NCBI RefSeq assembly: GCF_017571465.1
Contig: NZ_JAGETV010000007.1
Coordinates: forward strand, 1 to 64,000
Origin: Thiomicrorhabdus marina
GTDB taxonomy: Bacteria; Pseudomonadota; Gammaproteobacteria; Thiomicrospirales; Thiomicrospiraceae
Length of the DNA: 64,000 bases
Direction: 5' to 3'
Positions 24,611 through 43,303 of the stretch are shown here, one piece after another. Under the pieces are notes generated by a model, which ran no database searches, was not told the origin of the DNA, and worked only from the letters and a program-made list of their open reading frames with translations. The number at the start of each line of letters is the position of its first letter. Within the stretch, counting starts at the first letter, position 1. The position numbers and the translations under genes were made by a program.

Positions 24611-25063
24611 TTAATGCCCGCTCAGCTGTAACAACTTCTGATACTGTTCTAGGGTGAGGATTTGGCGAATCTGAGCAAGCGCATTAATCAATTTTTGGGT
24701 ATTGTTCCATTTCTGCTGTTGTAATTTCAGTAAGCCTTTTTCTAAATCCGTAGCGGTTTTTTGATCCTGAAGAATCTCTTGTGCTAACTGTTGTTCTAAT
24801 TGCTTAGCTTGTTGTAATCCTTGATGGATTTGCGGTGCCATCTCTTGACGCAATTTTTTCAGCGCTTGCTGTTGCTCGTTGGTGAGTTGCAGCTGTTCTT
24901 TAAAGCGCATCAGCGGTTTCATCAGGTGCGGTAAATTTTGCCCTTGAATGAGTGCATAATTGGGTAGGGTCTTTATTTCCGGTTTATTGTGCTCCATATC
25001 GGCAAGAGCGATAGCCGAGTGCAAACTTAGCCAAAGGATGAATAGGGTGGTCAGTTTTTTCAT
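24611..25063 (-). CDS. Spy/CpxP-like periplasmic protein (LTxxQ type)
   Basis: A 150-residue protein with a signal peptide (about residues 1-22, ending SAIALA) and a Gln/Leu-rich all-helical body with two LTxxQ-like elements (LQLTNEQQQAL, ILTLEQYQKLL). This is the pattern of Spy/CpxP-type periplasmic chaperones or metal-responsive proteins. It lies 17 bases after the TonB receptor gene and is probably co-transcribed with it. Confidence 0.65.
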   Translation of the reverse strand: MKKLTTLFILWLSLHSAIALADMEHNKPEIKTLPNYALIQGQNLPHLMKPLMRFKEQLQLTNEQQQALKKLRQEMAPQIHQGLQQAKQLEQQLAQEILQDQKTATDLEKGLLKLQQQKWNNTQKLINALAQIRQILTLEQYQKLLQLSGH

Positions 25064-25080: not shown

Positions 25081-27300
25081 TTAATGGATATACCAGCGAA
25101 TACCGGCATAGAAGTAACGGCCGATATCATTACCCAACGCTGGGTCGATATCGGTTTTCAATAGATTGTCGATGCCGGCAAAGAGATCAACTTCAGCCAG
25201 TGCGTAGTTGAATTTTAGATCCACTGGCGTATAAGCATCGGCTTGCGTAACCACAGTTTGTCCTTGTACGGTTTCGCTGTAATTTTGTTGCCCGACATAG
25301 CGCGCGCGTAGTTGCGTGCTGAAATCCGGCGTGACTTGGTATTTGAGACCCAAACCGATTTGAATATCCGGCGTATAGTCGAGTTTACGTTGGCTATCTT
25401 TGTCATAAGAATCAAGTAGGTTAAAGGCTAAATCCCAGCTTAGCTTCTTATTTAAGTGCTGCATTGCGCTGAAATCCAAGCCTTTTAAAGTCACCTTGCT
25501 GGCATTACGGAAGCTGATGTAATTGGCGGTCTGCTCACGCAGAATATTGTTTTCGATTTCGGTATAAAACAGTGCTAGGTCATATTGCCAATTACTGCCG
25601 AAACCGCGGATACCGACTTCGATGTTTTCGCTCTGTTCCGCTTCAAGATCAAACGCCTGTTTGCCGATAGAAGAATCTACCACTTGCGCGCCGACAAAAC
25701 GTTTGCCTTGCGGATTATAGCGATTGATAAAGTTCTCCTGACTGTCCGGTGCGCGGAAGCCTTGTGCATAGCGGGCGCGTAATGTCAGTGCCGGCATAAA
25801 TTGATAACTGCTACCGACATGCGCAGTGGTTGCTTCACCGGCGGCAGAAGTGTCGTCGTAACGTAACCCGTAAATCAAGTTTGCTTGCGGGGTAATTTGC
25901 CACTCGTGTTGTGCAAAAATGCCGGAGCTATCTTGTTCGATGGTTGACATACTGCCGTCTTCGGCAAAAAAGGCCGCGTCGCGTCGGTCAGCAAAGTATT
26001 CGGCTCCCATCAAGATTCGGTGCTCTGTATTGGCTTGCCAAGTGGCGTTTAAACTGTGTTGCACAGCCTGTACTGTGCCGTCGCCGCTTAAACTGGCGGA
26101 AGCGGCTTGCGAGGCGTAGCCCATCTCTTGCCATAGTAAGCTGGTAATCTGATCTTGCTTATCGTAATGCGATAGGCTCGATTGCCACTGCAGTTGTAAA
26201 TCGTCTCGGACTTGCCATTTTGCACCGATTCCCAAATCCACGCGCTGATTGGTCAAGGCTTGCGCATAGGGAATATTGGCAAAGTTTAGCGCACCGTTTT
26301 GGCCACTGATATAGTTAGAGGCATAAACGTTAGAAATGCCTTGAGTATTTCTCTGCTCATGCATATAAGCCAACGAAAAATTCAGTGCTAAGTCGGCATT
26401 CAGTTGATGGTTGATTTCGCCGCCGATATTAATGATTTCGCTCGGATCGCGGTAATAGACCGGCAGTGCATAGCTGTCATTAATCAAATCGCCAATAGGT
26501 TGGCTGAAAGCGGCGGCGCAGTTATCACCTTGCCCGCACGCCATATTATTATTTGGATTGATGCGCAAATTTGATTCGCTCGGTTTACTTTGCACGCCTT
26601 GCTGATTGCCAATTGGCACTCGAACTTGCGCCGTTTCGGTTTCGCTATAATCGCCGGTTTTTAGAGCACTAAACCACGCGCTGTAACCGGTCGCTTTTTG
26701 CTGACCGCGAACACTGGTTTCAAATTGTGTTTTTTCACCGTTGCCATGCTGATTGGCTCCATGGCTAAGGCTTAAACTTGACTCAAAACCATCAACCGGC
26801 TTTTTGGTAATAATATTAATCACCCCGCCTAATGCATCCGAACCATACAGCGCCGCCATAGGCCCTTTAATAATTTCAATCCGTTCAATTGCGGCAGCCG
26901 GAATGCGATTGGCATCATAGGCTTTGGTAAATTCAGTGCCGATTCGGCGGCCATTCATCAATAAAAGTGAACCCTTGGAAGAGACGCCACGAATGGAAAA
27001 TTGGCCATTATCGCTACTGACGTTGCCTGCCGATGGATTAAAGAAAACGCCACTGTATTGCAGAATGTCACGCAAGGTAACGGCAGCCTGCTGTTCAATC
27101 TGAGCAGCCGTAATCACTTCAACTGAAACCGGCAGCTGGTCTAGACTGCTTTCAGTCTGGGTAGCAGCGGTGACGGCAACCGTGTCGAGTTGTTGGTAGT
27201 CTGCATGCGCAATTTGACTGAAAGCCGAGCACATCAAAGCACTATGTAAACTAAGGCTCAGCAGCTTTCGTGTAAAACGAGGTGTGGTGTTAGAAGTCAT
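25081..27300 (-). CDS. TonB-dependent outer-membrane receptor (siderophore/colicin-receptor type)
   Basis: The 739-residue protein has a signal peptide (to about residue 33), a TonB box-like LDTVAVTAA, a plug domain with LPVSVEVITAAQIEQQAAVTL-type start, RGVSSKGSLLLMNGRRIG and IEIIKGPMAALYGSDALGGVINIIT, and a 22-strand-type barrel ending GIRWYIH (terminal aromatic-rich strand). It resembles FepA/CirA-type receptors. A Fur-like box 32-46 bases upstream supports iron control. The ligand is unknown. Confidence 0.88.
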   Translation of the reverse strand: MTSNTTPRFTRKLLSLSLHSALMCSAFSQIAHADYQQLDTVAVTAATQTESSLDQLPVSVEVITAAQIEQQAAVTLRDILQYSGVFFNPSAGNVSSDNGQFSIRGVSSKGSLLLMNGRRIGTEFTKAYDANRIPAAAIERIEIIKGPMAALYGSDALGGVINIITKKPVDGFESSLSLSHGANQHGNGEKTQFETSVRGQQKATGYSAWFSALKTGDYSETETAQVRVPIGNQQGVQSKPSESNLRINPNNNMACGQGDNCAAAFSQPIGDLINDSYALPVYYRDPSEIINIGGEINHQLNADLALNFSLAYMHEQRNTQGISNVYASNYISGQNGALNFANIPYAQALTNQRVDLGIGAKWQVRDDLQLQWQSSLSHYDKQDQITSLLWQEMGYASQAASASLSGDGTVQAVQHSLNATWQANTEHRILMGAEYFADRRDAAFFAEDGSMSTIEQDSSGIFAQHEWQITPQANLIYGLRYDDTSAAGEATTAHVGSSYQFMPALTLRARYAQGFRAPDSQENFINRYNPQGKRFVGAQVVDSSIGKQAFDLEAEQSENIEVGIRGFGSNWQYDLALFYTEIENNILREQTANYISFRNASKVTLKGLDFSAMQHLNKKLSWDLAFNLLDSYDKDSQRKLDYTPDIQIGLGLKYQVTPDFSTQLRARYVGQQNYSETVQGQTVVTQADAYTPVDLKFNYALAEVDLFAGIDNLLKTDIDPALGNDIGRYFYAGIRWYIH

Positions 27301-27331: not shown

Positions 27332-27346
27332 TGATAACGGTTATTA
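27332..27346 (-). promoter_or_regulatory. Fur box upstream of the TonB receptor
   Basis: TGATAACGGTTATTA matches the 7-1-7 Fur consensus (TGATAAT-N-ATTATCA) at 11 of 14 positions and lies just upstream of the receptor start. Confidence 0.65.
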
Positions 27347-27545
27347 TTAATATTTTTTTGCGTAAATCAATAGATGTTCTAATTTTTTTATAGTTTTTTT
27401 GATTTATAGATAAAAATTATTTGGTCTGGGCTATTGGCTAAGCTGTATGTCGTGGTGGAGAGAAGGGTGGATTTAATCGCACCTGACCTTCGACTTAAGC
27501 AATTCGTTTGATCAGGTATTTGGTGACGGTTAGATTCAATAGATG

Positions 27546-27603: not shown

Positions 27604-29004
27604 CTATATACCGTATTGCTGACGAATTAAAGCATCGCCGTTTTTGGCTTGCTGAGGATCTAAAACAATCGTGCGATCATCGTGCGTTTTTAGCACAATG
27701 GGCTGCGTGGTGCTAGCTTGCAAGGCTTGCACTATTTGCTCAAAGGATGAAACCTTTTGCTTGTTTAGACTTTCGATGACACTGTAAGCCGCTCTGTATC
27801 CGGCGTTTTGTGCATTCGGCAAAATCTGCTGTAGTACGACAATCTCTTTCTGCTGAGGGTGCTGGTTTGCGTAACTTTGCAGATTGGCGGCAGTGATAAT
27901 GTTTTTACGATTATTGCTTTGGATTAGCGCTTCTAGAATATTCTGGCTCAGCGGAACTAGCATTAGGCCGCCAAATAGGTGAAATTGCGGTTTATCGCTA
28001 AAAAGTCTAGGCAAATTGTTCTGTTCGCCTGCCAAATTCCAGTCCATTGTCATCATTTGGCCCTGACGCAGTACTTTGATGGAGATGCTCTCGCCAATCT
28101 GTTTTTGATGCAGTAATTCTTTAAAAGAGAGTTTACCTTCAGGTAAAAACACCATGCCGTCATTTTCGATTTTCTGCCCCGAAACTTCAATTAATACATC
28201 GTTTTCCTGCAAGGGAGAATCACTTGAATTTACCTCTTCGATTAGTATGCCTGAAGCCGTTTCAGGCAGTTGGAAATAGCGCTGTAAAGTTGGGTTTTCC
28301 ATCTGAGTAAAGAGGAAGTTTTCGTGCGGCATACCTTGGTATTCACCATCGGCAATATCCTTGAAGAAATGCCGAATGACGCGAGAAGGAACTAGGTAGC
28401 TAATGTTATTGGCTTTGGTAATTCCTTGCATGGCAATACCGACGATTTTCTGTTGTTGATTAATAATTGGCCCGCCGCTGTTTCCCGGATTAATTGGGGT
28501 ATCGATTTGAATGGTTAGAAACGGTTGTTTGGAATAGCTATAGTGACGATGTTCCAAACGTGAGACCACGCCTTTTGTGGTTGAAAGCTCGTCGCCGCCC
28601 ATTGGAAAGCCTAGCGCAGTAACCTGCTCACCCATTTTCGGTAAATCGCCTAATTCCAGCGGTTCGATGTCGTCAAAGAAACCACGGTTATCGATTTCCA
28701 GCAATGCTAAATCCGTTGCATTCGAGACCCATTTGACCTTTGCCGAGAACTTGCGGATATTGTGGTTTTTTCGGACTTCAATAAAGGTGGCATGACCGAT
28801 GACATGTGCCGACGTCAAAATATAGTTTTGCTGCTCTATCTGCACAAAAACGCCTGAACCGGACGAACGACTGATTTTCTTGGTTTGCCAAGGCAGCTCA
28901 TAATCGGGCAAGCTTTTGCTGACAAAGACCTTAACGGTGCTGTTTTCAGCGGAAGCGCAAGCCAGTTGTATCGGTAAAAGCAGTAGTAGGAGAAATTTTT
29001 TCAT
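27604..29004 (-). CDS. Deg/HtrA-like periplasmic serine protease
   Basis: The 466-residue protein has a signal peptide (about 1-19), then a trypsin-like domain with an intact triad: H67 (TSAHVIG), D98 (NATDLALLEI), S176 (INPGNSGGP). A PDZ-like segment follows (about 225-320, GILIEEVNSSDSPLQENDVLIEVSGQ). The C-terminal 140 residues have a second PDZ-like region, as in the DEG9 type. It starts 35 bases after the TonB receptor gene (29039) on the same strand and probably belongs to the same transcript. Its substrate may be linked to that receptor, an inference from context. Confidence 0.82.
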   Translation of the reverse strand: MKKFLLLLLLPIQLACASAENSTVKVFVSKSLPDYELPWQTKKISRSSGSGVFVQIEQQNYILTSAHVIGHATFIEVRKNHNIRKFSAKVKWVSNATDLALLEIDNRGFFDDIEPLELGDLPKMGEQVTALGFPMGGDELSTTKGVVSRLEHRHYSYSKQPFLTIQIDTPINPGNSGGPIINQQQKIVGIAMQGITKANNISYLVPSRVIRHFFKDIADGEYQGMPHENFLFTQMENPTLQRYFQLPETASGILIEEVNSSDSPLQENDVLIEVSGQKIENDGMVFLPEGKLSFKELLHQKQIGESISIKVLRQGQMMTMDWNLAGEQNNLPRLFSDKPQFHLFGGLMLVPLSQNILEALIQSNNRKNIITAANLQSYANQHPQQKEIVVLQQILPNAQNAGYRAAYSVIESLNKQKVSSFEQIVQALQASTTQPIVLKTHDDRTIVLDPQQAKNGDALIRQQYGI

Positions 29005-29038
29005 CAGAGTGACTCTTATTTTTCAGGAGTGTATGGGG

Positions 29039-31516
29039 TTAAAAATCAATACTTGCGCCAAGCCAGAATTGGCGGCCTAAAGTGTAATTGTTGGTACCGT
29101 CATCGACCTTCTGGACTTGATCAAGCAGGTTTTTGGCATCTACGGTAAAAGTCATCGTCTGGCCGAGCCAACGATATTTATAGCTCAGCGATAAATCCAA
29201 CTTAAATAAGGGATCGTAATCGACATAGCGATAAATTTGGATCTTGCGCACCGCATTGGCGTCATCGTCATCTTGCACTGAATCCAATACAAATGAATTC
29301 GACTCAAAGTTTTGGTATTTGCCGGTATAGGTGGCAAACAGACCGATATTTAGCCCTTTGCTGGCTTGGTAACCGTAAAACAGTTTTAAGGTTGCCGGAG
29401 AGTTATCTTCAATGGTGCCGAAATCGGACATGGAGTAGAGTTGTCCCTGATAAATAATGGCGGAGTTGTCAATGTCGTCGGCTTCATCGTTATAGCCTTC
29501 GACGTAGTTTTTTGACCCCTTGCCTTTAAAGAAACTGGCCAAAATGCTGTGTTTGGCCCAAGATTTCTGCCATTTAATCCGGAACGATTGGTGTTTACTC
29601 CAGCCGTTATTGGTTAGCGTGGTGTAGGTGTGACCATCATCGGCCACCGCACTGGTTTCGCTGGTAAATTGATCATGACCATCGCGAAACACTTGCTCCA
29701 TCGACAAGATTCCGCCCAATAGTTTGGCTTCCAATCCAATGCTGTGCTCATCGCTGTATGGCGTTTTTAGTTTTGAGTACTCGGTAATATCGGTGTGGTA
29801 ATCATCGCCTAAAGACCACTGGTCGGGGGTCACGATTTTCTGACCGTTTTCATCATAACCGCCGAGTAGGCCGCGAGTGTATTCCTGATAGTTTTTACCG
29901 GATTGGCGCAATTTGTGGGACAAAAAGGTATTGGCGTAATAGCGATTCAGTCCGGCGGTTAAGAAAATATCTTTATTGCCGAAAAGGTCGAATTTCCCCA
30001 AACTGCGGTAGGCGATATCGTGATTTTCCATAAAGTCGTTATAGTCATAACGTGCGCCTAGGCGCAGCATCAAACGCTGCCACTGCATGGAATCTTCCAA
30101 ATAGAAACCGGTGTTGACGATTTCCGCCTCGCGGGTGCCAGCGAGATAAACCGTCTTGTTAGCGGCATACTGTTCACCTTCAACACAAGCGTCTGCGCTG
30201 CCGCAATTAAGGTTGGCGATACCGGCTTCAGCTTCGCCGTCTCTGTGGCTGACGGTATAACGATTAGCGTCTTGTGTACGGGTTTTCGTGGCGGCAACAC
30301 GATTCAATTCTGCACCGAGTTTGACGGCGTGTTCAGTTTCGCCGGATTGCATGCGTTTGAAGGCAAAATCGCTTTTTAAGTACATACGGTTCTGTTCGCT
30401 TTCCAAATCGCCGTAGCCTCCCTGACGAGAGTAATTGCCGTCATAGACTCTACCCCAGGGAAAGGTATCGGTGTGCGCCCAGTAATAATAATTTTGCGGC
30501 GCTTCGCGGCTATTGACGCTTTGGTTAATCGAAAAGCTGCTGTCCATGCTGCCGAGAGCAAAATGACTTTCCAGTTCAAGATTGAGTTTGCTACCGCCGC
30601 CGTTGACCGTATATTCACTGTCTTCGACATTCTGTAGCAGACGGTTTTCCGAATAGGGGGCGGTACTGAAAGTGATATCCAAAATATGGTCGTCGTTAAA
30701 AAAGTGCGTCCATTTGGTCAACAGATTATCCAGCGTGCGCTGCTCGTTTTCGGTGCGGTCTAAATGCAGAACCGGAATGTCCGATGTTGCGCGATTGTAA
30801 TTGATGTAAAAAGCGTTACTGTCATTGACTGGGACGTTAACAAATAGATTGTAGTTGAGCTTTTCGAATTTAGGTTGATCGTCGGCCGCACTGCGCGACA
30901 ATTCGAAATCGGTTTGGTCTTCGACGTGAAATTTGGTTAGGCTATCGGCAGTATAGCGCACCCCAAAATGTGCACGGAACTCGCCTTCGGCACGTTTGGT
31001 TTTGGCCTCGACTACACCGCTACTAAATTGACCGAATTGCGCTGAGACGTTGCTGCTGTAAACATTGATCGATTCAATCAAGTTGAGATTGAGGTACATC
31101 TCCTGCGGATGGCCTTCCAATTGGCCTACATTGCTGGTGGTCGAGCCGGGGTCAAGAATTGAATTATTCGGCGAGCCATCGACAATAAAATTGTTTTGGT
31201 AATAAGCCCCGCCTAAAATCGAGACCTTACCGGGTTTGAGTTCACCCGCTTGGTTGGAGGTGTTAGCTGTGTCAATGACTTCGACCTCGGGCAGAATCAT
31301 CAAAGCTTCATTCATGTCGCCGTTGCTTTTCGGTAGGGTTTGTAAGATTTCTTTGGAAAGGGTGGTCTTTCCTGCTTCGCTGCTGTCGGCTTTAATTTCC
31401 GCTTCCGGTTCGGCATTGACGACTACGGTCGATAGCTGTGCTTCGGCATAAGCGAATTTAGGTACCATTAATAACAGGCAACTAAGTGTTAAATAAAATG
31501 CGTTGGTTTTGCGCAT
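29039..31516 (-). CDS. TonB-dependent receptor of the MauG/lipoprotein locus
   Basis: From ATG 31516 (GGAG site; the frame extends 19 codons further up) the protein is 825 residues. Signal peptide ends AYA. A TonB-box-like STVVVNAE precedes a plug domain (QTLPKSNGDMNEALMILPEVEV, VSILGGAYYQNNFIVDG, GQFSSGVVEAKTK). The barrel ends in YTLGRQFWLGASIDF. It is not of the FepA class; the plug differs, lacking the usual RG-x-x motif set. Gene order suggests it works with the lipoprotein and di-heme enzyme upstream and the protease downstream. The substrate is unknown. Confidence 0.84.
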   Translation of the reverse strand: MRKTNAFYLTLSCLLLMVPKFAYAEAQLSTVVVNAEPEAEIKADSSEAGKTTLSKEILQTLPKSNGDMNEALMILPEVEVIDTANTSNQAGELKPGKVSILGGAYYQNNFIVDGSPNNSILDPGSTTSNVGQLEGHPQEMYLNLNLIESINVYSSNVSAQFGQFSSGVVEAKTKRAEGEFRAHFGVRYTADSLTKFHVEDQTDFELSRSAADDQPKFEKLNYNLFVNVPVNDSNAFYINYNRATSDIPVLHLDRTENEQRTLDNLLTKWTHFFNDDHILDITFSTAPYSENRLLQNVEDSEYTVNGGGSKLNLELESHFALGSMDSSFSINQSVNSREAPQNYYYWAHTDTFPWGRVYDGNYSRQGGYGDLESEQNRMYLKSDFAFKRMQSGETEHAVKLGAELNRVAATKTRTQDANRYTVSHRDGEAEAGIANLNCGSADACVEGEQYAANKTVYLAGTREAEIVNTGFYLEDSMQWQRLMLRLGARYDYNDFMENHDIAYRSLGKFDLFGNKDIFLTAGLNRYYANTFLSHKLRQSGKNYQEYTRGLLGGYDENGQKIVTPDQWSLGDDYHTDITEYSKLKTPYSDEHSIGLEAKLLGGILSMEQVFRDGHDQFTSETSAVADDGHTYTTLTNNGWSKHQSFRIKWQKSWAKHSILASFFKGKGSKNYVEGYNDEADDIDNSAIIYQGQLYSMSDFGTIEDNSPATLKLFYGYQASKGLNIGLFATYTGKYQNFESNSFVLDSVQDDDDANAVRKIQIYRYVDYDPLFKLDLSLSYKYRWLGQTMTFTVDAKNLLDQVQKVDDGTNNYTLGRQFWLGASIDF

Positions 31517-31535
31517 GGATTGCTCCAGAAAACAG

Positions 31536-31565
31536 AAAGACAGGTGTTTTGAAACACCTGTCTTT
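31536..31565 (-). terminator. 14-bp hairpin between lipoprotein and TonB genes
   Basis: A perfect 14-bp stem (31536-31549 with 31552-31565, 2-base loop) lies between the two genes. In the direction of transcription (minus) it is followed by CTGTTTTC; on the plus strand by TTTTT-like sequence. It is likely a partial terminator or processing hairpin that sets unequal levels of lipoprotein and receptor. Confidence 0.7.
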
Positions 31566-31584
31566 TTGAACAACAGAGTCGGTT

Positions 31585-34500
31585 TTATTCTGCTGTCGAG
31601 TTAAAGAAAGGGGTTAAGTCGCTGCTGTCGGGAATGCCGTCATTATCTACGTCGCTATCCAGTGTCAGTCCACAAGCTGCTATCTGTTCGGCGGTCGCGC
31701 CTTGGTCATAGAAATCAGGCAGGCCGTCACGATCGTTGTCCACCGTGGCAACATCACAACTTTCAAAAGCATCGTGCTGATAAAGTGAGTAGGAGATTTG
31801 GCGCAGGCTTTGCAGGTAGTTGGCTTTTAACGGCAGATATTGATTAGCCAATTGCAGCGCCGAATTGATTTGATTGATGGTCGCGTAACCCCAGATCGCA
31901 CCCTGATAGGCTTTTAATTGATTCGAGGTGTCGGCAATTTGCGCAGCGGTCTCTAGCAATAAATCGGCAGACTTTTGAACACCTTCCGGCTGATTGTTTT
32001 CTAAGTAGAAACCTTGCAGGCCGCCGCTGAAATAAAGGGTAGAGTCGTTGCTTGGAGCTGTGCCGTACAGCGCCACTGCCCGAGCTTGATAATCTTCTTG
32101 AGCGGAGTCGCTATCCAACATTTCGCTGCCGGCGATAATGTCATAAATATCTTCAAGAATGGTGGAGATCATGCTCATCGCGACACTGCCGTTATCGTTG
32201 ATGATGGTGGCAAGGGTTGCTAAACGAGAGCGGCGTTCGCCGGCATCGGTAATGGTTAGTGCAAATTGACGTGCTTGTTCGGCGTATTCAAAGGCTTGCT
32301 CATTCATGCCCATTTCAAAGTAGTGGCGGGCAATGTAGGTCAAACCGTAGGCTTGCTGGTAAGGGTCGAAAACCACGGCATTGGCCGGAGCCGATTCATC
32401 GCCGGTGATAATGTCGATCGCCTGCTGCATCATTTGTGCCGACAATTCGCTTTCGCCAGCAAAGTGATACAGATTGGCCAGTTTGGCATAACCGTAGAGC
32501 ACATAGTTCGTGGTTTTTAAGGCATCGGTGGTCTCTACCGCATCGGTAATCGCCTGATCCAAAAGGGTTCGTGCCGTATCGATAGCCAATTTAGCATCGG
32601 CCAGTTGACCGTTGTTGATTAAGTTAAGCGCCAAGTACGGTGTTGATTTACTTACGCCGCTATAGGTAAGCGATTTAACGGCATTGCGGTATTCGGTGGA
32701 AGCGGTACCCGGCATAAGGTTTTCTTGAATCAATTCAATCGCATCGCCGGTGCTTAACGTTGGGTTATAAACGGCGTAGTTTGCCCAAGCATTGGCGATA
32801 TAAGTATCGCGTACCATGCTATTGATAACCGTTGTGACCTCTTCCAATGAGGTTCCGGCGTCGGCTAGGATCGGCATCATGAAATTGGAGAGATAGATGT
32901 CGGTGCGATAAGTCGTATCGTTGTTGCCTGTATTGCCCTCAATACCGTCATCGGCACGCAAAGCGTAAATATCATTAAAAATTTGCAAAGCGCGTGCTTT
33001 GTCTTCTGCGGAACCGAGATTCTGGTAGTAGGCTTCGGCAACACCGAACATCGCGAAGACGCGCATCAGGTAATACCAACGCGACGGTGTATCCGGGTAG
33101 TTGCTTTTCCGATTAGGCGGTGTTTGTTGAGCAATAGTGTAAGCGTCTTCCAAGGTCTGTCTGGCTGTGGTCAAATCGCCGTCTTGTGCATACAAAATCG
33201 CTGCGTTGGTCAAGCCGCCTGCATAGGCGCCAAATGGCGTTGAATTGTCGCCGAATTCGCTGACTAGCGATTGCATATAAGCGGTGAGGGCTTGTGCCTT
33301 ATCGTTCAGACCAAGTTGGCTGAAGGCATAAACCATCTGATTCACATCAACCACATCTGCCGATTTAATCGAAGCCGCGCCTTTGGATTGCAGGTAACTT
33401 TTGAACAGCACGAGGCTCTTGTCCAACATTGCTTCGGCATCTTCCGCGCTCAGGTCGTTATCGATATAGTATTCGGCAATGTCCAGCAAAATCTGGTATT
33501 CCGATTCGGGGGTGAAGATATTGCGGTTGGCGTATTGCAGCGCCAATGCAGGGTTGTCGTTGCTTAAATAGCCTTTAGCCAGATTGAGGTATACCGACTC
33601 CATGGTGGCGATATCGGTTACGCCGCTGATGATGTCTGCCGATTGCGCCAGATGCGAAGCGGTCGATTGATAGTAGTATTCGCGTTTGGCTTCGCTGCTG
33701 TCTTCCAGAGCTTGCGCCAACTCTTGACGATGGTTAAGCAGGTTTTCGTTTTCTACTTGGTTCAATGCAATCTCTGCCACTTCGCTACTGATGTCGGGGA
33801 CTTGCATTTCGGCATCGGTCACATCTAAGGTTGCTACGTTTTGCAGCAAGCCAAGCAGCAGCGCGATTTGAGTGCGGTTGACTTGACCAACCGATTGGCC
33901 TGATAAATAGACCAAGATCGCATCGGTCAGTTTGTCGGCATTGGCGATGACCGTTGCATCGGCAAAATCGTGCCCGGCAAATAAGTCGCTTTGCAACAGG
34001 GTGTGTTGGCTGATGAAACGGTTAATGGTGTCTTGCGTGTTACTGGCACTTCCGAGGTTGGCACTCAGTGCCAAAAGTTGATTGATCAACTCGTTGCTGA
34101 GGCCGCTGTTTTCGATAACGGCATTAATTCCGGTCTGATCGTCGGTTTCATTTAAGGTTAGGTCGGCAAAGCCGTTGTCCAGATTTTTGGCAATTAAGGT
34201 CAGTAGCATGGCTTTGTGTAATAAAGCGGCACTGCTTTCTGTTGATTGGGTCAGATCGCTCGGATCGATATTTAATTCCGCGCTAATTGCGGTTTGCGCC
34301 TGTTGTAAGCTGTCGCCGGCGTTCATGCGCTGGGTGACTAAAGACGTTAGCGGAGTGACAAAATAGCGATTGTTGGCCGTATCTTGCAAACCGGCAGGAA
34401 CCGAAAACTGTACACCGGTTAGATCCTCGCCGGTTGCTGAATCGCTACCGCCGGTAGCGTAAATAGCGTACTCGCTTAAGTCAATTTGCCCGGATAGGGT

Positions 34501-34764
34501 TAAGCTGAAAGCGCCGAGCGCATTGGTTAAGGTTTTTTCCGCTAGGCATTCGCTTGCCAGATCAATACGGCAAATCTTCACTACCGAACTTTCTACTGCC
34601 GGATCGACAACAAAACCGTTGATGGTACTGCTGGTGCTCGTATCCGGTGCGCTTGATTCCGAATCCGCGCCGGTCGAACTGCCGCCGCCTCCGCAAGCAC
34701 TAAGCGCGATAGCGCCGCTGGCAATGAGAAGACTTTGTAGGAGAGGTTTCAGTTGAGTTTTCAT
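31585..34764 (-). CDS. Giant lipoprotein with TPR-like helical repeats and C-terminal calcium repeats
   Basis: A 1059-residue protein with a lipoprotein signal (LSAC, Cys24) and a Gly/Ser/Thr linker. Residues 45-110 resemble an Ig-like/carboxypeptidase-regulatory fold (INGFVVDPAVESSVVKICRI). A long helical body of TPR-like repeats follows (for example ALQYANRNIFTPESEYQILL, ARQTLEDAYTIAQ, AFEYAEQARQFALTI). The tail has thrombospondin type-3-like aspartate repeats (DNDRDGLPDFYD, DVDNDGIPDSSD) that bind calcium in other proteins. It is probably anchored in the outer membrane. It lies between the MauG-like gene and the TonB gene. I do not recognise a specific family. Confidence 0.75.
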   Translation of the reverse strand: MKTQLKPLLQSLLIASGAIALSACGGGGSSTGADSESSAPDTSTSSTINGFVVDPAVESSVVKICRIDLASECLAEKTLTNALGAFSLTLSGQIDLSEYAIYATGGSDSATGEDLTGVQFSVPAGLQDTANNRYFVTPLTSLVTQRMNAGDSLQQAQTAISAELNIDPSDLTQSTESSAALLHKAMLLTLIAKNLDNGFADLTLNETDDQTGINAVIENSGLSNELINQLLALSANLGSASNTQDTINRFISQHTLLQSDLFAGHDFADATVIANADKLTDAILVYLSGQSVGQVNRTQIALLLGLLQNVATLDVTDAEMQVPDISSEVAEIALNQVENENLLNHRQELAQALEDSSEAKREYYYQSTASHLAQSADIISGVTDIATMESVYLNLAKGYLSNDNPALALQYANRNIFTPESEYQILLDIAEYYIDNDLSAEDAEAMLDKSLVLFKSYLQSKGAASIKSADVVDVNQMVYAFSQLGLNDKAQALTAYMQSLVSEFGDNSTPFGAYAGGLTNAAILYAQDGDLTTARQTLEDAYTIAQQTPPNRKSNYPDTPSRWYYLMRVFAMFGVAEAYYQNLGSAEDKARALQIFNDIYALRADDGIEGNTGNNDTTYRTDIYLSNFMMPILADAGTSLEEVTTVINSMVRDTYIANAWANYAVYNPTLSTGDAIELIQENLMPGTASTEYRNAVKSLTYSGVSKSTPYLALNLINNGQLADAKLAIDTARTLLDQAITDAVETTDALKTTNYVLYGYAKLANLYHFAGESELSAQMMQQAIDIITGDESAPANAVVFDPYQQAYGLTYIARHYFEMGMNEQAFEYAEQARQFALTITDAGERRSRLATLATIINDNGSVAMSMISTILEDIYDIIAGSEMLDSDSAQEDYQARAVALYGTAPSNDSTLYFSGGLQGFYLENNQPEGVQKSADLLLETAAQIADTSNQLKAYQGAIWGYATINQINSALQLANQYLPLKANYLQSLRQISYSLYQHDAFESCDVATVDNDRDGLPDFYDQGATAEQIAACGLTLDSDVDNDGIPDSSDLTPFFNSTAE

Positions 34765-34788
34765 AATGTGTCCTTAAGCGTTTTAGCG

Positions 34789-35967
34789 TTAGTTGGGAAG
34801 TGTCGGAGTGGCGACATAGCGACTGTTCTCTGATGAAAGAGTCAGTAGAAACAGCTCTAAGTCCTGCAATTCGTTTTTTGTTAGATTGAGTGGTTGAATC
34901 AGCGGGGATAATGCGGGTTCCCCGGGTTTGAGTTTTTTTCTAAAGGTCATGCCCGCGTTGTACATGTTCAATACTCCGCGAATTGATGGGAACAGACCGT
35001 TGTGCATATAAGGGCCGGTGTGTTTAATACCCCGCAAACCGGGCGTGCGAAACAAACCTTTATCTTCTTCTTGAGCGGTGCTGTTGAAGCGGCCTAAATC
35101 TTCAAATTTACGACCGTAGTAGCTCAGGCCGGTGTGATGAAATTTATTGTCGGTAAGGAAAGTACCTTGATGGCAGACAATACAGCGGGCTTTGGTGCGA
35201 AATAGATGCAAGCCGTTTATCTCCCGGTCATTCAGTTGCTGGTAATCGCCTTCGACAAAACGGTCAAAGCGGCTAGGACGAGAAACCAAGGTTTTCTGAA
35301 AGCTGGCTAGGGCATCGGCTAATTGCTCAGCGCTAATAGTAGTATTCACTTGTTGCGGTTGATAAATTGCCGCGAACTGTTGGCGATAGCCGGTGATTTG
35401 ATTTAGCTTGCTCAAGGCTTCAGGTAGCGTAGAGTGCATCTCTAGCGAGTCTTGAATCGGCATTAAAGCTTGATGTTGTAAGCTCTGCGCCCGCCCGTCC
35501 CAGAAAAGTGGTTGAAAAGCCGAGACATTGAGCAAGCTCATGCTGTTGCGCAGACCTTGTTGGCGGTTATGTCCGAGAGCTTTGCGTTTGCCATCCGCCC
35601 AACCCAGCTGAGCATCATGACAAGAAGCGCAGGCAATTTGGTTGGAACGCGATAGACGCGGATCAAAAAACAGCTGTTTTCCTAGTCTTACCTTGTCTGC
35701 ATTGTTTTCTTTAAACTCTTTGATTTGTGCAATATAGGCGTTGATTGAACCCAGTTCAGTTATCTTTAGGTTCTCTACTTGAATAGCGGGCGGCCAAGCA
35801 TCCAATGGCTTACGGTAAGCAGAAGTAAGGGCATTAGGGCTTTCGGTGAACTCTTCCTTTGCATTGACCGATTTGCTTTGTGCGTTAAAGCTAGCAGCAA
35901 CCAAACTGCATATCAGCAAGGATAGGATGCTTGGTTTGCAAAATGAAATGTTCATTTTTTCAGACAT
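34789..35967 (-). CDS. Di-heme cytochrome c peroxidase / MauG-like enzyme
   Basis: The 392-residue periplasmic protein has a signal sequence and two c-heme motifs, C113-x-x-C116-H117 and C262-x-x-C265-H266. Bacterial cytochrome c peroxidases place a methionine ligand about 17 residues after PYxH; aligned by eye on PYMHNG (319-324), the residue here is tyrosine (Y336 in NMYNAG), as in MauG. This points to a MauG-type oxidase that modifies a protein partner rather than a peroxidase. Two possible starts (35967 and 4 codons later) both lack a clear ribosome site. It is the first gene of a set with the giant lipoprotein, TonB receptor and protease; a Fur-like box lies upstream. Confidence 0.85.
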   Translation of the reverse strand: MSEKMNISFCKPSILSLLICSLVAASFNAQSKSVNAKEEFTESPNALTSAYRKPLDAWPPAIQVENLKITELGSINAYIAQIKEFKENNADKVRLGKQLFFDPRLSRSNQIACASCHDAQLGWADGKRKALGHNRQQGLRNSMSLLNVSAFQPLFWDGRAQSLQHQALMPIQDSLEMHSTLPEALSKLNQITGYRQQFAAIYQPQQVNTTISAEQLADALASFQKTLVSRPSRFDRFVEGDYQQLNDREINGLHLFRTKARCIVCHQGTFLTDNKFHHTGLSYYGRKFEDLGRFNSTAQEEDKGLFRTPGLRGIKHTGPYMHNGLFPSIRGVLNMYNAGMTFRKKLKPGEPALSPLIQPLNLTKNELQDLELFLLTLSSENSRYVATPTLPN

Positions 35968-36013
35968 AGACTATTTTCGTAATTAGTATTTATATTGCAA
36001 TAGTTAATGTAAA

Positions 36014-36028
36014 TTGTACTAATTCTCA
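36014..36028 (-). promoter_or_regulatory. Fur box upstream of the MauG-like gene
   Basis: Read on the minus strand, TGAGAATTAGTACAA fits the 7-1-7 Fur consensus at 11 of 14 positions, 47-61 bases before the di-heme gene. The rest of the 295-base gap (35968-36262) between this gene and hmuV holds no convincing gene. Confidence 0.5.
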
Positions 36029-36262: not shown

Positions 36263-37036
36263 TTAGCTAGGCAAAATATAAGGCCAGCCTTTAGGGTGTG
36301 GCATAACTTTGATTGGTAAGCCGTACACGTTGGATAGTAAGTTAGCTTGGTATACTCGCTTGACTTCGCCAAGAGCTTGAATCTTTCCATCTTTTAGGAT
36401 TAGGCTTCTATCCGAGTACTGCGCGGCAAGATTTAGGTCATGTAGTACCGCAATGACTCCAACATTGTGTGTTTTTGCAAATTGTCTGGCGGCCTGAAAA
36501 ACTTGATGTTGATGCGCAAGATCCAGATTAGATGTACATTCATCAAGCAGTAGGTAGCGGTCTGAAAGTGTAGAGCTACTCTGATGCTCTAGCTGTGCGA
36601 AGACTCTTGCCAATTGAACTCGCTGTTGTTCGCCTCCTGATAAGGTTAAGTAGTTACGAGCCTGTAAATGGGCAACTTCAAAGCGTTCTAGTGCTTTTAT
36701 TGCTGTCGGTAATAGTTGCGCTTTGGGAATTGGTTGAAGCGCCATTTGTACAACCTCGCGTACTAGAAAAGGGAAGTCTAGTCGAATGAACTGTGGCATA
36801 ACTGCTCTTAGTTCAGCAAGTTTTTCATCGGTTAGCTGATTGATTGACTGTTGGTTAATTTCTATTTTGCCCGAGAAGTGCTGGAAATCCCCGCTTAAGC
36901 ACTTTAGTAGCGTTGATTTTCCCGCGCCATTTGGCCCTAAAATAGTAAAAATTTCCCCCGGTGCGATGCTGACCGAAATGTTTTCTAGGATACGTTTATT
37001 TGCGGTTTCAAAAGAGAGGTTTTTAGCAACTAACAT
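36263..37036 (-). CDS. hmuV: Heme ABC transporter ATP-binding protein
   Basis: The 257-residue ATPase has Walker A (GPNGAGKST), signature LSGGEQQRVQLARV and Walker B (LLLDECTSNLD). It pairs with HmuU and HmuT to move heme across the inner membrane. It starts 1 base after hmuU and ends the heme operon. Confidence 0.93.
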   Translation of the reverse strand: MLVAKNLSFETANKRILENISVSIAPGEIFTILGPNGAGKSTLLKCLSGDFQHFSGKIEINQQSINQLTDEKLAELRAVMPQFIRLDFPFLVREVVQMALQPIPKAQLLPTAIKALERFEVAHLQARNYLTLSGGEQQRVQLARVFAQLEHQSSSTLSDRYLLLDECTSNLDLAHQHQVFQAARQFAKTHNVGVIAVLHDLNLAAQYSDRSLILKDGKIQALGEVKRVYQANLLSNVYGLPIKVMPHPKGWPYILPS

Positions 37037-37037
37037 T

Positions 37038-38075
37038 TTACCATCCTATTTTGTTACGTCTCTGTAGCAGTAGCCACAGAAAAAAAGGGCCGCCAAAAGC
37101 AGCTATGACGAGTCCGATGGGAAGTTCTGCGGGGGCGAGTAAGGTTCGAGCAAGCATGTCCGACAAGGTAACCAGTATCGCACCGATGATTGCACTACCG
37201 GGAAGTAGCCAACGATGATCAGGTCCAAGTAATATTCTGACTAGGTGAGGTGCGGCTAGTCCGATAAAACCGATCATGCCGCTCACGGCAACCGCAGCGC
37301 CTACGGACAGTGAGCTAAATATTATGACGCCGGTTTTAAGCTGCTTGAGTTTGTACCCCATATGGCGACAAGCCGATTCCCCCATTAAAAAAGCATTCAA
37401 GCTTTTAGCGTAGTAAGGCAAGGCGATAAGGGCGAATAGTATTGGCAAAACAGCAATGGATAAATCTTCTTTAGATGCACTGGCAATGGATCCCATGCTC
37501 CAGAAGGTAAGGTTACGTAGCTCTTCGTCGGTGGCGTAATAAGTCAGTATTCCGGTCAGGGCAACGGCAATCGCATTAATTGCAATGCCGGCAAGTAGCA
37601 TTAGGCTTACGTCAGTTCGACCGTTGCGAGTAGCAATCTGATAAATGATTAGAGTGACGGCTAAGCCCCCAAAAAAAGCAGCCGTCGGTAAAGCTAAATC
37701 TCCAGCCCAGCCAACATAGTCTGAAAGAGCACTACCGCCGAGAACAATCACGGTGACTGCTGCTAAAGCTGCCCCGCTTGAGACTCCTACTAAGCCAGGG
37801 TCTGCCAAAGGATTTCGGAATAATCCTTGTAGAGCGGCGCCGGCAATACCGAGCGCTGCACCGACTAAGATTGCTAATAGAATACGCGGCAGGCGAATAT
37901 CGATTACTACTTTTTCAGTCATAGGATCAACTTCGGTTATTAAGGCCGCACTGGCTTGACTCCAACCGGTTTGGATTGCTCCGACAGAAAGTGAGTAGAC
38001 TGCGATGATTAGCATCAGAAAAATCATCGCAGCTAGACCATAATAAGGGTGGTCGAACAGACGAGTGTTAGTCAT
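37038..38075 (-). CDS. hmuU: Heme ABC transporter permease
   Basis: The 345-residue FecCD-family permease has about ten membrane segments. Motifs include IRLPRILLAILVGAALGIAGAALQGLFRNPLADP and GFIGLAAPHLVRILLGPDHR, typical of heme/siderophore/B12 permeases. It overlaps hmuT by 4 bases. Confidence 0.93.
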   Translation of the reverse strand: MTNTRLFDHPYYGLAAMIFLMLIIAVYSLSVGAIQTGWSQASAALITEVDPMTEKVVIDIRLPRILLAILVGAALGIAGAALQGLFRNPLADPGLVGVSSGAALAAVTVIVLGGSALSDYVGWAGDLALPTAAFFGGLAVTLIIYQIATRNGRTDVSLMLLAGIAINAIAVALTGILTYYATDEELRNLTFWSMGSIASASKEDLSIAVLPILFALIALPYYAKSLNAFLMGESACRHMGYKLKQLKTGVIIFSSLSVGAAVAVSGMIGFIGLAAPHLVRILLGPDHRWLLPGSAIIGAILVTLSDMLARTLLAPAELPIGLVIAAFGGPFFLWLLLQRRNKIGW

Positions 38076-38989
38076 GGTGTATCCTGTAGATCGCGAAAAG
38101 AAAGTTGGTTATTTCTGTCATAAATATGATTTGCGAGTTTGAGAATTTCCTCGCCGATACGCGGACCAAAGTTTAAAAAGCTATTATTCATGACGATTAA
38201 GTTTTTTTGTTTGCCTGCTTCGGTCATGCTGATTGCCGTAGAATTAAGCATGCTTTCACGTCCACCTGAAGATTGTAGTCCTTGCTGCATGGTGATAAGA
38301 AAGCTTGGGTTGTAAAGAATGGCGGACTCAGCTGTTAGTGGCTTGTAGCCTGTAATCAAGTCAGCCGGTGCATTATGAACACCAGCAAGGCGTAGCATTT
38401 CATCAGCGCGCGTGTTTTTGCCGGCAACCATCATATTGCCGTTACGCATTCCCATGGTAAAAATAGCGTGTTTCACTTTATTACCGGTGAGGCTTTTAAT
38501 TTTGCTCTGCGTTTCGGCAAGTTGCACTTGGATTTTTCTAATCATGGCTTCGGCTTCAACATCTTTATCTAACACTTTGCCCATTTCGCGAATCTTGTGA
38601 TAGACGCCACCAACAGTAAAATTGTTTTTTATTTGAACAACTTTGACTCCCGCTTCTTTTAATTGAGTAAACACTTTCTGCGGTTTGGCGTCGGTGGTGG
38701 TAATCACTAGGCTTGGGTTGAGCGAAAGAATCCCTTCGGCACTGAGTTGGCGCATATAGCCAACATTAGGAAGTTTGGCTGCTTCAGCAGGGTAGATACT
38801 CGTGACGTCACGGCCAACAATTAGGTCTTTGCTGTCCAGTGCATAAGCTATTTCAGTAAGTGAGCCGTCAATTGTAATGATGCGTTCAGCATGCGCTTTA
38901 TGCGAAAAGCCAAGGATAAGCACGATAAAAGCCAGTCCGGAAAGTAAATATCGGGCATTTTTGATCTCGCAAGATATACAAAGTTTCAT
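38072..38989 (-). CDS. hmuT: Heme-binding periplasmic protein
   Basis: The 305-residue substrate-binding protein has a signal peptide (ending AHA) and the TroA/BtuF-type fold (ITIDGSLTEIAYAL, LSAEGILSLNPSLVITT). It delivers heme to HmuUV. A strong AAAGGAG site precedes the ATG. Gene order fits the Hmu/Hem systems. Confidence 0.92.
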   Translation of the reverse strand: MKLCISCEIKNARYLLSGLAFIVLILGFSHKAHAERIITIDGSLTEIAYALDSKDLIVGRDVTSIYPAEAAKLPNVGYMRQLSAEGILSLNPSLVITTTDAKPQKVFTQLKEAGVKVVQIKNNFTVGGVYHKIREMGKVLDKDVEAEAMIRKIQVQLAETQSKIKSLTGNKVKHAIFTMGMRNGNMMVAGKNTRADEMLRLAGVHNAPADLITGYKPLTAESAILYNPSFLITMQQGLQSSGGRESMLNSTAISMTEAGKQKNLIVMNNSFLNFGPRIGEEILKLANHIYDRNNQLSFRDLQDTP

Positions 38990-39013
38990 AAGTCTTTCTC
39001 CTTTTAACGGTGC

Positions 39014-40051
39014 CTAATGTTTATTGAGTAATTTGCAAATCGAGGTGAGAAGGCCTTGCCATTTTGCTGTCATTGTCGGATCCTTTCGTGCTTTGGGATG
39101 TAGGTAGAGCATTGCGATGGGTTGATTTGCATGATCAAACCATTCAATCGATTCGATGATTTCCTGGTCACTTGGTTTATAAACTTTCCAAGCTTGTGAA
39201 ACGGAAGGTAAATTCAGATGCATATGAAAAGTTTTGTCTAAAACGTTCAGCCACGGCCCAGTTTCCATAAGCTTGTCAATCGTGCCGTTATGGATTTGTG
39301 TGCATACGCCGTTTGGCGCAAAAATCAGAACCGGCACTTGCAGAAGGGCGAGCTGCTCCAAGGTAAATTTAACGGAATCTGGATTTATCTGTGTGGCTAC
39401 ATCGACGAGTTGTTGGTATGCCTGTGGACGGCTAATGCCGTAGCTTTTTAGTAGCGGGTTAAGTTGATGTGAATTAGTCATTTGTTCCCATCGTTTTTTG
39501 AATTCAAGCCATTCTTGTTCTGAAGGCTGCGCTTTTAATTCGCCTTTGTGATCGGAAGATTTGGGGCTGGGCATGACAAACTTGGTGCAATACTTTTGAA
39601 TTAAGTAATGATAAGCGTGATGGTCACTTTTCTCTGTCAGGTAAATTTTGTGAATGGCTCGTCCCTCAGTATCGAAGAATTGCAAACTAAGACGTTCATT
39701 TTCATTTACTGAAAAGCCCCAGGAAACGTCATTAAGACGTAATCGGATGTCAATGGGTGGGTTTTCTAAAATCATATGATTGTGGCGGAAACGAGGGTTG
39801 TAATAGCTTCCGTGATGTTCGAAAACCATGCTGTCATTGCGAGTTAAAGCCATGACTTCGCCAAGATTTTGCACAGCAATCAATAAGTCCTGTAAGCGGT
39901 CAATATCCAAAGGTTGAGCTTGAGATGGGTAAGACAAGGCAACATATTCAGCCTCGCTGATTCCTAGTGTCTTTGCTGCTTCGCGTGCTCTTGGACGAAA
40001 TTCGGAATTTTGCAACTGATGCTTGTGTTCGGCTAGAGTATTAATTTCCAT
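39014..40051 (-). CDS. hmuS: HmuS/HemS-like cytoplasmic heme-handling protein
   Basis: The 345-residue protein has the two tandem halves typical of HemS/HmuS (repeated WGF-type and LSLQFFDTEGRAIHKIYL / WFDHANQPIAMLYLHP). These bind heme and are reported to degrade or pass it on. It lacks a signal peptide, so it acts in the cytoplasm. Its start overlaps the end of the HmuY-like gene by one base. Confidence 0.9.
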   Translation of the reverse strand: MEINTLAEHKHQLQNSEFRPRAREAAKTLGISEAEYVALSYPSQAQPLDIDRLQDLLIAVQNLGEVMALTRNDSMVFEHHGSYYNPRFRHNHMILENPPIDIRLRLNDVSWGFSVNENERLSLQFFDTEGRAIHKIYLTEKSDHHAYHYLIQKYCTKFVMPSPKSSDHKGELKAQPSEQEWLEFKKRWEQMTNSHQLNPLLKSYGISRPQAYQQLVDVATQINPDSVKFTLEQLALLQVPVLIFAPNGVCTQIHNGTIDKLMETGPWLNVLDKTFHMHLNLPSVSQAWKVYKPSDQEIIESIEWFDHANQPIAMLYLHPKARKDPTMTAKWQGLLTSICKLLNKH

Positions 40052-41178
40052 TACTGTGCATCCTCATCCCAATTTTCAACTTCAAACACTAAAGTACCGT
40101 TTTCCCAAGATTTCACTCGGATGCGAGCATATTGATAATCTCCATTGGTATCTGCGGTTGCGGAACGTAAAATCCAGCCGTTGGATGCATCGTCGTGAAT
40201 CGTTATAGTGTGAGTGCTCATGTCGTAGGTATACCAGTCTGTAAACTGGCTGGTGGCTGTATCTTCTAACCATTCTGTGCAGGAAGCTGAACTGACCGAG
40301 TTGAATTCGGTTAAGGTGTTCTCTGCGGTTTTAGATTCAAACTCGCTTTGAACTGGCGCCCCGTTTTCATCGTAAAGATTCGAGTAGCTGTGCGCTAAAC
40401 AGCCGCTTACATTGCCTTCACCAGAAATGCCGCCGTTGGTTTTGAAGCCGACATATTTTTGATAAGCCATTTGCCATAATTGATCGGAACTAACGGTGTT
40501 TCCATTTGCTAAATCAAGGTATGCCGCTTGTGTTGAATCGGTTGCTGCATCTAGTGTGGTAACTGAACTGGGTTCGTTTTCCGCGGCAGCGGCATATCGA
40601 ATCCTTAACGTTGCACTAGGCGAAGTACCGTCTTCGCCGTAATTACTAATGACTTGGGCTTTGTAATAGATTCCGTTTTGTTCAAAAACGTAGGTGGCGA
40701 AGTTTGGCCACATTTTATGGCTGCCTGCGACGTTGTACTCAAGAGGCCCGTAGCCGCCAGGCGTTGAAAGTACTCCGCTAGCACTGTCTTCGAAGTATTT
40801 ATAAACTTGGCTTAAATCGGTCGGGTCGGTAATCTCGAATGGACTGTCAGTCAAGATTGCGCCGATACCTGCTGAACCTGTACCGGAGACTCCGCCATTG
40901 ACTTGGATAGTGTGGCCGTATCCGTCGGAACTGATTTTTAATTCCCAGTCAGCGCTTTCGTCAACGATGCTATTGGTTTCTAAGTCCCAATAAACCGTTG
41001 TGCCGCTGTAGTTCAGCGCTGGGGTATCAACGCTGCTTTGAAAGCTACGAGTTTCTGCCGGTGTTCCGCTCGCGTTATCTGAAGGGAGGGCCGTATTGTC
41101 TGATGATCCGCCGCCACCGCAAGCGCCTAGACCCAAGGCTAAAAAAAAGATGCTACTCGATTTTAATAAGGTTTTCAT
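40051..41178 (-). CDS. HmuY-family heme-binding lipoprotein with two HmuY-like domains
   Basis: The 375-residue protein has a lipoprotein signal (GLGAC, Cys20) and two consecutive HmuY-like units. Each opens with a strand of the type YWDLETNSIVDESADWELKI or YLDLANGNTVSSDQLWQMAY, and continues with an NGG-x-SG-x-G turn (VNGGVSGTGSAG; TNGGISGEGNVSG). HmuY strips heme and hands it to the receptor HmuR. The tandem layout is seen directly; whether both halves bind heme is unknown. Confidence 0.8.
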   Translation of the reverse strand: MKTLLKSSSIFFLALGLGACGGGGSSDNTALPSDNASGTPAETRSFQSSVDTPALNYSGTTVYWDLETNSIVDESADWELKISSDGYGHTIQVNGGVSGTGSAGIGAILTDSPFEITDPTDLSQVYKYFEDSASGVLSTPGGYGPLEYNVAGSHKMWPNFATYVFEQNGIYYKAQVISNYGEDGTSPSATLRIRYAAAAENEPSSVTTLDAATDSTQAAYLDLANGNTVSSDQLWQMAYQKYVGFKTNGGISGEGNVSGCLAHSYSNLYDENGAPVQSEFESKTAENTLTEFNSVSSASCTEWLEDTATSQFTDWYTYDMSTHTITIHDDASNGWILRSATADTNGDYQYARIRVKSWENGTLVFEVENWDEDAQ

Positions 41179-41213
41179 AATGATACTGCTCCTTTAGTTA
41201 GAGTGTTGCTTGT

Positions 41214-43226: not shown

Positions 43227-43240
43227 AATGTAATTTGTAT

Positions 43241-43255: not shown

Positions 43256-43303
43256 TTATTATTAATATATGATTTTTATTGTCAATAAGAATAGGAGAAA
43301 AAA

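Follow-up and report, generated by a model that had tools for sequence, protein, structure and literature searches.

The present analysis concerns a block of genes on the minus strand of a 64,000-nucleotide stretch of Thiomicrorhabdus marina DNA (assembly GCF_017571465.1, contig NZ_JAGETV010000007.1, positions 1 to 64,000), hereafter called the window. Four genes follow one another here and encode a di-heme enzyme, a large lipoprotein, a TonB-dependent receptor and a trypsin-like protease, with intergenic gaps of 24, 68 and 34 bases (Table 1). This arrangement had been described in an earlier note made from the sequence by eye and from its open reading frames (ORFs); the positions, the strand and the short gaps were confirmed, and Pfam supports the di-heme enzyme, the receptor and the protease. 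The conserved unit comprises six genes, as a second TonB-dependent receptor and an LTXXQ-family protein come after the protease in all three genomes that carry it. The start of the first receptor was taken at an ATG, which gives 825 residues; the mechanical ORF list begins at a TTG at 31573. The block is interpreted below as a variant of the Fus-type protein-import systems.

Table 1. Genes and sequence features of the block in the window, listed from the di-heme promoter to the last gene (aa, amino acids; resampled sequences are explained in the text)
Feature	Position	Strand	Evidence
Fur-like match upstream of the di-heme gene	36009..36027		12/19; 249/500 resampled as good
MauG-like di-heme enzyme, 392 aa	34789..35967	-	CCP_MauG E=4.8e-52 (Pfam)
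First CXXCH haem motif, residues 113-117	35617..35631	-	C113, C116, H117 invariant, 21/21
Second CXXCH haem motif, residues 262-266	35170..35184	-	C262, C265, H266 invariant, 21/21
Tyr336, where classical cytochrome c peroxidases have their Met axial ligand	34960..34962	-	Alignment
Lipoprotein, 1059 aa	31585..34764	-	No Pfam/NCBIfam match; AlphaFold2 model, fold search, 15 homologues aligned
Tyr363-365 aromatic motif of the lipoprotein	33670..33678	-	Y363 15/15, Y364 13/15, Y365 14/15
C-terminal DxDxDG...DxDxDxDG tail of the lipoprotein, residues 998-1053	31606..31773	-	9 Asp, G1014, F1018, P1052, all 15/15
13-bp hairpin between lipoprotein and receptor genes	31536..31565	-	Folding z -4.36
FusA/YddB-type TonB-dependent receptor, 825 aa	29039..31516	-	4zgv and 6ofr matches; TonB plug 2.9e-5
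Trypsin-like (Deg-type) protease with PDZ_3, 466 aa	27604..29004	-	Trypsin_2 2.1e-25, PDZ_3 1.5e-22
Fur-like match upstream of the second TonB receptor	27333..27351		14/19; 14/500 resampled as good
Second TonB-dependent receptor, haem/siderophore-like	25081..27300	-	Same position in G013, G031
LTXXQ-family small protein, final gene of the block	24611..25063	-	PF07813 2.2e-5; similar ORFs by eye in G013 and G031

The assignment of the block starts from its receptor. A search of solved structures gave two matches at E <= 0.01. One is FusA, the receptor for ferredoxin (4zgv; E=4.9e-82 across residues 45-822), and the other is YddB (6ofr; E=7.4e-54). With a profile built from seven receptors these matches rose to 1.5e-165 and 4.5e-131, respectively, other receptors being far weaker. 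Judged by sequence, the receptor is a full-length member of the FusA/YddB family. Owing to this homology with FusA, the cluster is counted among the Fus-type import systems, and it is very probably an importer of a protein or a peptide. The block shares with the Fus system of Pectobacterium (FusA, FusB, FusC, FusD) and with YddB/PqqL a full-length homologous receptor and a protease gene after the receptor; a further likeness may be Fur regulation, for which Fur-like sites are seen in the orthologues. It differs from Fus in lacking the M16 protease, FusB and FusD and in having, as extra members, the di-heme enzyme and the lipoprotein; a Deg-type protease stands in the block instead of FusC. A search of plasmids with the receptor returned 12 records, all below 60% identity, five of them from Escherichia and two of those five annotated as yddB.

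According to passages of two publications (PMC7593965, PMC6793856), whole ferredoxin is imported by FusA in Pectobacterium and cut by FusC. The survey of Grinter et al. (2019, PMC6793856), in its main text, describes FusA homologues across Proteobacteria, with FusC accompanying FusA in only 12 of 24 sequence clusters; genes of the cytochrome c peroxidase (CCP) family lie beside FusA homologues in multiple cases without FusC, and other proteases are also mentioned there. Its authors propose that the CCP-family enzymes reduce the imported protein and so free its iron cofactor. The link between receptor and di-heme enzyme is therefore already known from that survey. What is added here is the lipoprotein, the Tyr-ligand identity of the enzyme, the Deg variant and the linkage counts. 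The word "lipoprotein" is absent from the main text of PMC6793856, and no report of the lipoprotein, or of the Tyr-ligand (MauG) nature of the linked enzyme, was found in the literature searched. The statement of the earlier note that no system of this composition had been described must thus be narrowed: FusA together with CCP-family genes was published in 2019, and the novelty that stands, as far as the main text of the survey goes, is the lipoprotein.

Within the genus, 32 genomes (the source genome and 31 others) were compared. The lipoprotein at full length, the receptor, the Deg protease (E <= 1e-40) and the di-heme enzyme (at least 60% identity) each occur in three of them, always the same ones (G000, G013, G031), and at that E-value no Deg protease match was seen in the remaining 29. 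The gene order of all three blocks is identical, namely di-heme enzyme, lipoprotein, receptor, Deg protease, second TonB receptor and LTXXQ protein. In G013 and G031 the block is set between two genes that we read from the flanking proteins as lon and pheT, and in the window it is set beside haem-uptake genes; the same block in two different surroundings indicates that its members are kept together. A genus search with the lipoprotein gave matches in 8 of 58 genomes at E <= 0.001, of which five were short N-terminal matches and were not counted. The protease has H67, D98 and S176 invariant in the three orthologues and carries trypsin and PDZ_3 domains, and it scores below the Do/DegP cutoff (TIGR02037; 145.8 vs 416.2 bits). 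A distant relative in G056 (35%) has no receptor, di-heme or lipoprotein match in the stretch around it. Homologues of the second receptor occur at 49-50% in two more genomes.

Beyond the genus, a sample of 397 genomes of the phylum was searched, for which all counts are lower bounds, as only the best two candidates per genome were scored for the receptor and the lipoprotein and the best four for the di-heme enzyme. The receptor profile was matched in at least 15 of the 397 genomes and in at least 11 of 118 in the family of G174, the two sets overlapping; in a previous search across the class, a profile of three members had matched 5 of 369. The di-heme subfamily was present at 400 bits or more in at least 8 of the 397, the next best score being 318 bits; this line was set after the scores were known, and three of the eight genomes had seeded the alignments while five had not. 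All eight matches adjoin a FusA homologue. The remaining 7 of the 15 FusA homologues adjoin a gene for an M16 (FusC-type) protease, so that each of the 15 receptors has a processing enzyme of one kind or the other beside it. The full-length lipoprotein was found in at least three genomes (783-970 bits), always within a FusA/di-heme cluster. At E <= 1e-6 its profile reached at least 116 genomes, the best match that was not full-length scoring 107 bits; among the partial matches listed, nearly all cover the Ig-like N-terminal part (within about residues 1-220), and two (45 and 35.6 bits; G447 and G440) cover the Asp-rich C-terminal part only. The earlier note had treated the four families as one set, and their co-occurrence was found well beyond one strain.

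Altogether 28 receptor loci were examined, three from the genus, four from the class-wide search and 21 from the phylum and family searches. A di-heme gene is part of the cluster in 20 of them, and the lipoprotein is also encoded in 14 of those 20; the genes run lipoprotein, receptor, di-heme enzyme in 11 of the 14 and, in the three of the genus, di-heme enzyme, lipoprotein, receptor. The di-heme gene usually adjoins the receptor gene; exceptions are the genus, where the lipoprotein lies between, L086 with two small genes between, and L099, where it is about 1.9 kb away on the opposite strand. Seven loci have an M16 gene beside the receptor and neither a di-heme gene nor the lipoprotein in the examined stretch; the lipoprotein profile found nothing among the ORFs of these seven and of the six di-heme loci that lack a lipoprotein, and no di-heme gene was found in the seven. 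Across the 28 loci, Fisher's exact test for association of the lipoprotein with a linked di-heme gene gave p=0.011, with 11 loci coming from one family and kinship ignored. On the receptor tree, 3 changes suffice for the lipoprotein plus di-heme label, where shuffled labels need 9.7 on average and none of 500 shuffles is as low; the M16-only label is not clearly clustered (57/500 as low). Di-heme and M16 partners swap more than once on this tree, as expected of alternative processing partners; its branches are long and some placements unsure.

The di-heme enzyme itself is, from its alignment, a Tyr-ligand member of the CCP/MauG family. The earlier note had placed Tyr336 where CCPs have their Met, and this holds in an alignment of 45 proteins, from which 28 of 73 matches had been left out as duplicates, as short or as having fewer than two CXXCH motifs. 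Position 336 is Tyr in all 20 receptor-linked enzymes and Met in 20 classical CCPs, 14 of which are from the same genus; the remaining five comprise three with Tyr and two that are very divergent and not safely readable. Tyr336 is present in 21/21 members of the subfamily, which a hidden Markov model built from the linked members sets apart from classical CCPs. The AlphaFold2 model (predicted local distance difference test, pLDDT, 85.4) fits best to the CCP 1iqc (Z 33.8, root-mean-square deviation 1.8, 292 residues), followed by MbnH 6e1c (31.0, 3.2, 306), MauG 3l4m (29.2, 2.1, 282) and BthA 6nx0 (27.4, 3.0, 297). With MauG, which serves in methylamine dehydrogenase maturation, the enzyme shares two CXXCH haems, the fold and, by alignment, the Tyr at the axial position, which in MauG is the distal ligand of the second haem; it differs from MauG in being linked to an importer and in scoring below the TIGR03791 cutoff (213.3 vs 443.85 bits). 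It also falls below the MbnH cutoff (TIGR04039; 196.5 vs 362.85 bits), and the lipoprotein is without NCBIfam match, so that there is no MbnP partner. Nor does it have the Met ligand of a classical CcpA, as it carries Tyr336. The CCP-like ranking of folds and the scores below cutoff suggest that Tyr336 marks a branch of the family and not a reaction. Tyr336 was not accepted as proof of a protein-modifying enzyme of MauG type, as Tyr also occurs in other MauG-like enzymes, for example in G057 (L014).

A classical function as guard peroxidase has to be weighed here. Such an enzyme would clear peroxide and limit Fenton chemistry by released iron, touching neither a cargo nor the lipoprotein. In keeping with this role are the bacterial CCP fold, with 1iqc as best match, and the core residues Trp156 and Glu176, which none of the 20 linked enzymes has lost. 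Against it, these enzymes make up a Tyr-ligand subfamily of their own that goes with the receptor (8/8 in the phylum sample), whereas Met is present in the 14 classical peroxidases that the alignment includes from the genus, and no receptor was found in their genomes. A pure guard role is considered unlikely. Two further MauG-like loci deserve mention on their own account. In G057 (L058:9690-11077), a small cupredoxin-like protein is encoded 14 bases after a MauG-like enzyme whose ligand position is Tyr, possibly a separate pair of enzyme and partner. In G038 (L037), MauG-like genes lie in tandem; their ligand position is Tyr as well, and the core Trp156 is matched by His in the alignment.

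The lipoprotein consists of a lipobox with Cys24, a Gly/Ser tether, a beta domain, a TPR-like alpha-solenoid and an Asp-rich, calcium-repeat-like tail; no Pfam or NCBIfam match was obtained at E <= 0.001. Its AlphaFold2 model (pLDDT 74.9, predicted template modelling score 0.63) has an N-terminal beta domain, an alpha-solenoid over residues of about 350-1000 and an ill-defined Asp-rich tail. A specific fold could not be assigned, as Foldseek and VIA-align matched parts of the chain to generic alpha-solenoids (TPR, PPR, HEAT, VPS35 and others); SusD and TbpB entries are absent from the fold matches listed, which carries no weight against either. The lipobox Cys is present in 15/15 homologues, the distant ones being only 15-22% identical to the window protein. 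The strongest aromatic conservation outside the tail lies at Tyr363-365, with S367 (14/15) and S370 (15/15) downstream of it. No Trp is conserved across the 15 lipoproteins, and the member from G787 has none at all.

These features can be compared with two kinds of known systems. In published descriptions, MbnH/MbnP, CorB/CorA and SACCP/MopE likewise have a MauG-like di-heme gene beside a secreted or surface partner, and Mbn operons are often near a gene for a TonB-dependent transporter. CorA is described in them as a beta-strand copper protein, whereas the partner in the window is an alpha-solenoid without conserved Trp. A kynurenine/copper model of the MopE, CorA or MbnP type is ruled out for the lipoprotein, as no Trp is conserved and one member is Trp-free; the Trp-to-kynurenine precedent of MopE and CorA is thus inapplicable to this family. 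The other likeness is with Slam-dependent TbpB-type lipoproteins and their TonB receptors, where a lipoprotein also stands beside a receptor of a family importing protein-borne iron; the window lipoprotein differs from TbpB in its alpha-solenoid, its Asp-rich tail and the lack of a Pfam TbpB match. In G687 (L142:2933-5644), a Slam protein (SlipAM 1.5e-93), a TbpB-like lipoprotein, a FusA homologue and an M16 protease are encoded in a row, which gives a precedent for a surface lipoprotein with the FusA receptor family and amounts to a Fus system of surface-lipoprotein type.

The earlier note had supposed that the di-heme enzyme modifies the lipoprotein or an imported cargo. Oxidation of the lipoprotein would make a metal-binding or cross-linked residue for metal capture, comparable to MauG acting on preMADH and to what is inferred for CorB/CorA and SACCP/MopE, and its target would then be the Tyr363-365 motif and not a Trp. 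Fourteen of the 15 lipoprotein loci have a clustered di-heme gene, and the fifteenth genome has a subfamily member elsewhere; Tyr363 is invariant and Tyr364-365 nearly so despite the low identity to distant members; and the lipoprotein of G156 (L054), the sole one without a linked di-heme gene, has Tyr-Phe-Phe at the motif, although this is a single case. On the other side, 6 of the 20 linked di-heme loci have no lipoprotein, the profile search included, and the G787 lipoprotein is free of Trp, which makes oxidation of the lipoprotein less likely than action on the cargo. A Tyr ligand also does not make every di-heme enzyme a protein modifier: the PDB titles of BthA call it a peroxidase, and its Tyr at the ligand place is deduced from the title of a Y463M variant. 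Modification of the lipoprotein is accordingly doubted, and it is the conserved Tyr motif that keeps this reading alive. An improbable extension of it is that, while the lipoprotein passes through the periplasm, its Tyr363-365 motif is converted by the di-heme enzyme into a Tyr-derived site (cross-link, quinone or stable radical), and that the matured lipoprotein, once at the surface, uses this site to strip or reduce the cofactor of an iron protein ahead of FusA-type import. If true, this would be a surface redox step in the piracy of protein-bound iron with a MauG-type, Tyr-directed maturation.

The preferred reading, to which we give a probability of roughly 0.5, is a di-heme variant of the Fus-type protein-import system, in which an iron protein would be bound by the lipoprotein, taken up through the receptor and dismantled by the di-heme enzyme and the protease. 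The large lipoprotein would serve as a co-receptor at the surface, binding a small iron protein and passing it on to the receptor, whose import step would be powered by TonB. Once in the periplasm, the cargo would have its redox cofactor, either an iron-sulfur cluster or a haem, attacked by the di-heme enzyme, which would use peroxide or work by electron transfer; the apoprotein would then be digested by the Deg-type protease as the substitute for FusC. The same iron response probably includes the second receptor and the LTXXQ protein. The parts of this scheme differ in strength. Iron is probably the goal of the system; the chances that the lipoprotein is a co-receptor appear evenly balanced, and much the same can be said of the processing of the cargo by the protease. 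Action of the di-heme enzyme on the cargo is tentatively favoured as its role, at slightly less than even odds. The di-heme gene is tied more tightly to the receptor (20/20) than to the lipoprotein (14/20), which makes the cargo a likelier target than the lipoprotein; as the linked set was gathered via the receptor, the independent support for the receptor link is the 8/8 of the phylum sample. From the earlier note, an outer-membrane system for metal acquisition with a processing protease is supported, now with iron as the metal and around a FusA/YddB homologue, and the modification of the lipoprotein becomes the weaker reading in view of the 6/20 loci without one.

Fur-like sites were scored against a 19-base consensus, with 500 Markov-resampled sequences as control. 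The orthologous di-heme promoters have matches of 14/19 (20/500 and 5/500 resampled as good), and the promoter of the second receptor has, besides the match in the window, one of 14/19 in G031 (4/500). Gaps of 24-68 bases favour a single transcript, but a strong hairpin lies between the lipoprotein and receptor genes. A strong hairpin is found at the same gap in both orthologous blocks (z -3.62 and -2.64), and through it the lipoprotein may be made in excess of the receptor.

Several observations weigh against the proposed import of an iron protein. The lipoprotein is presumed to lie at the surface from its Gly-rich tether and by analogy. No FusB-like TonB and no FusD-like ABC transporter were found among the six block genes scanned, the rest of the genome not having been searched. 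In G156, lipoprotein and receptor share a locus and the subfamily di-heme gene (442 bits) is on another contig. Both di-heme and M16 genes are held by L086 and L103, so the two are not strict substitutes. The Fur-like box that the earlier note saw upstream of the di-heme gene is at chance level in the window, and so is that of the neighbouring haem receptor gene (12/19, 163/500). Furthermore, in the main text of PMC6793856, loss of YddB or PqqL in E. coli leaves growth under iron limitation unimpaired, from which it follows that iron is perhaps not the cargo of every family member. These mutants without iron phenotype, together with the argument of Grinter et al. in the same text that ferredoxin is unlikely as a universal substrate, are also what favours import of a ligand other than iron, such as a peptide, for nutrient scavenging, with oxidation of that ligand by the di-heme enzyme. 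The Fur-like sites in the orthologues and the haem-uptake genes adjoining the block in the window argue against such a ligand, for which the odds are considered low.

The surroundings of the block include a haem-uptake locus that adjoins it in the window (36263-43256) and consists of an ABC transporter, a periplasmic binding protein, HemS and a TonB receptor. Within this locus, an ORF of 375 aa (40051-41178) has no match in Pfam or NCBIfam. DUF4920 proteins are encoded in or near four of the lipoprotein/FusA/di-heme clusters (L086:7139-8162, L103:16221-17244, L088:6270-6695 and L089:13741-14142), that of L089 slightly below the Pfam cutoff, and a PepSY_TM_like_2 protein is also found in two of the four.

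Not many ways are known for a whole protein to get into a Gram-negative cell, and Fus-type importers provide one of them. The set described here presents a Fus version with a Tyr-ligand di-heme enzyme and a large lipoprotein in several proteobacterial families, and here it belongs to the genus of a free-living sulfur oxidiser, to which plant ferredoxin is not available. It raises the question of whether the target of the di-heme enzyme is the cargo, the lipoprotein or peroxide only, and the lipoprotein would provide a handle for fishing out the cargo.

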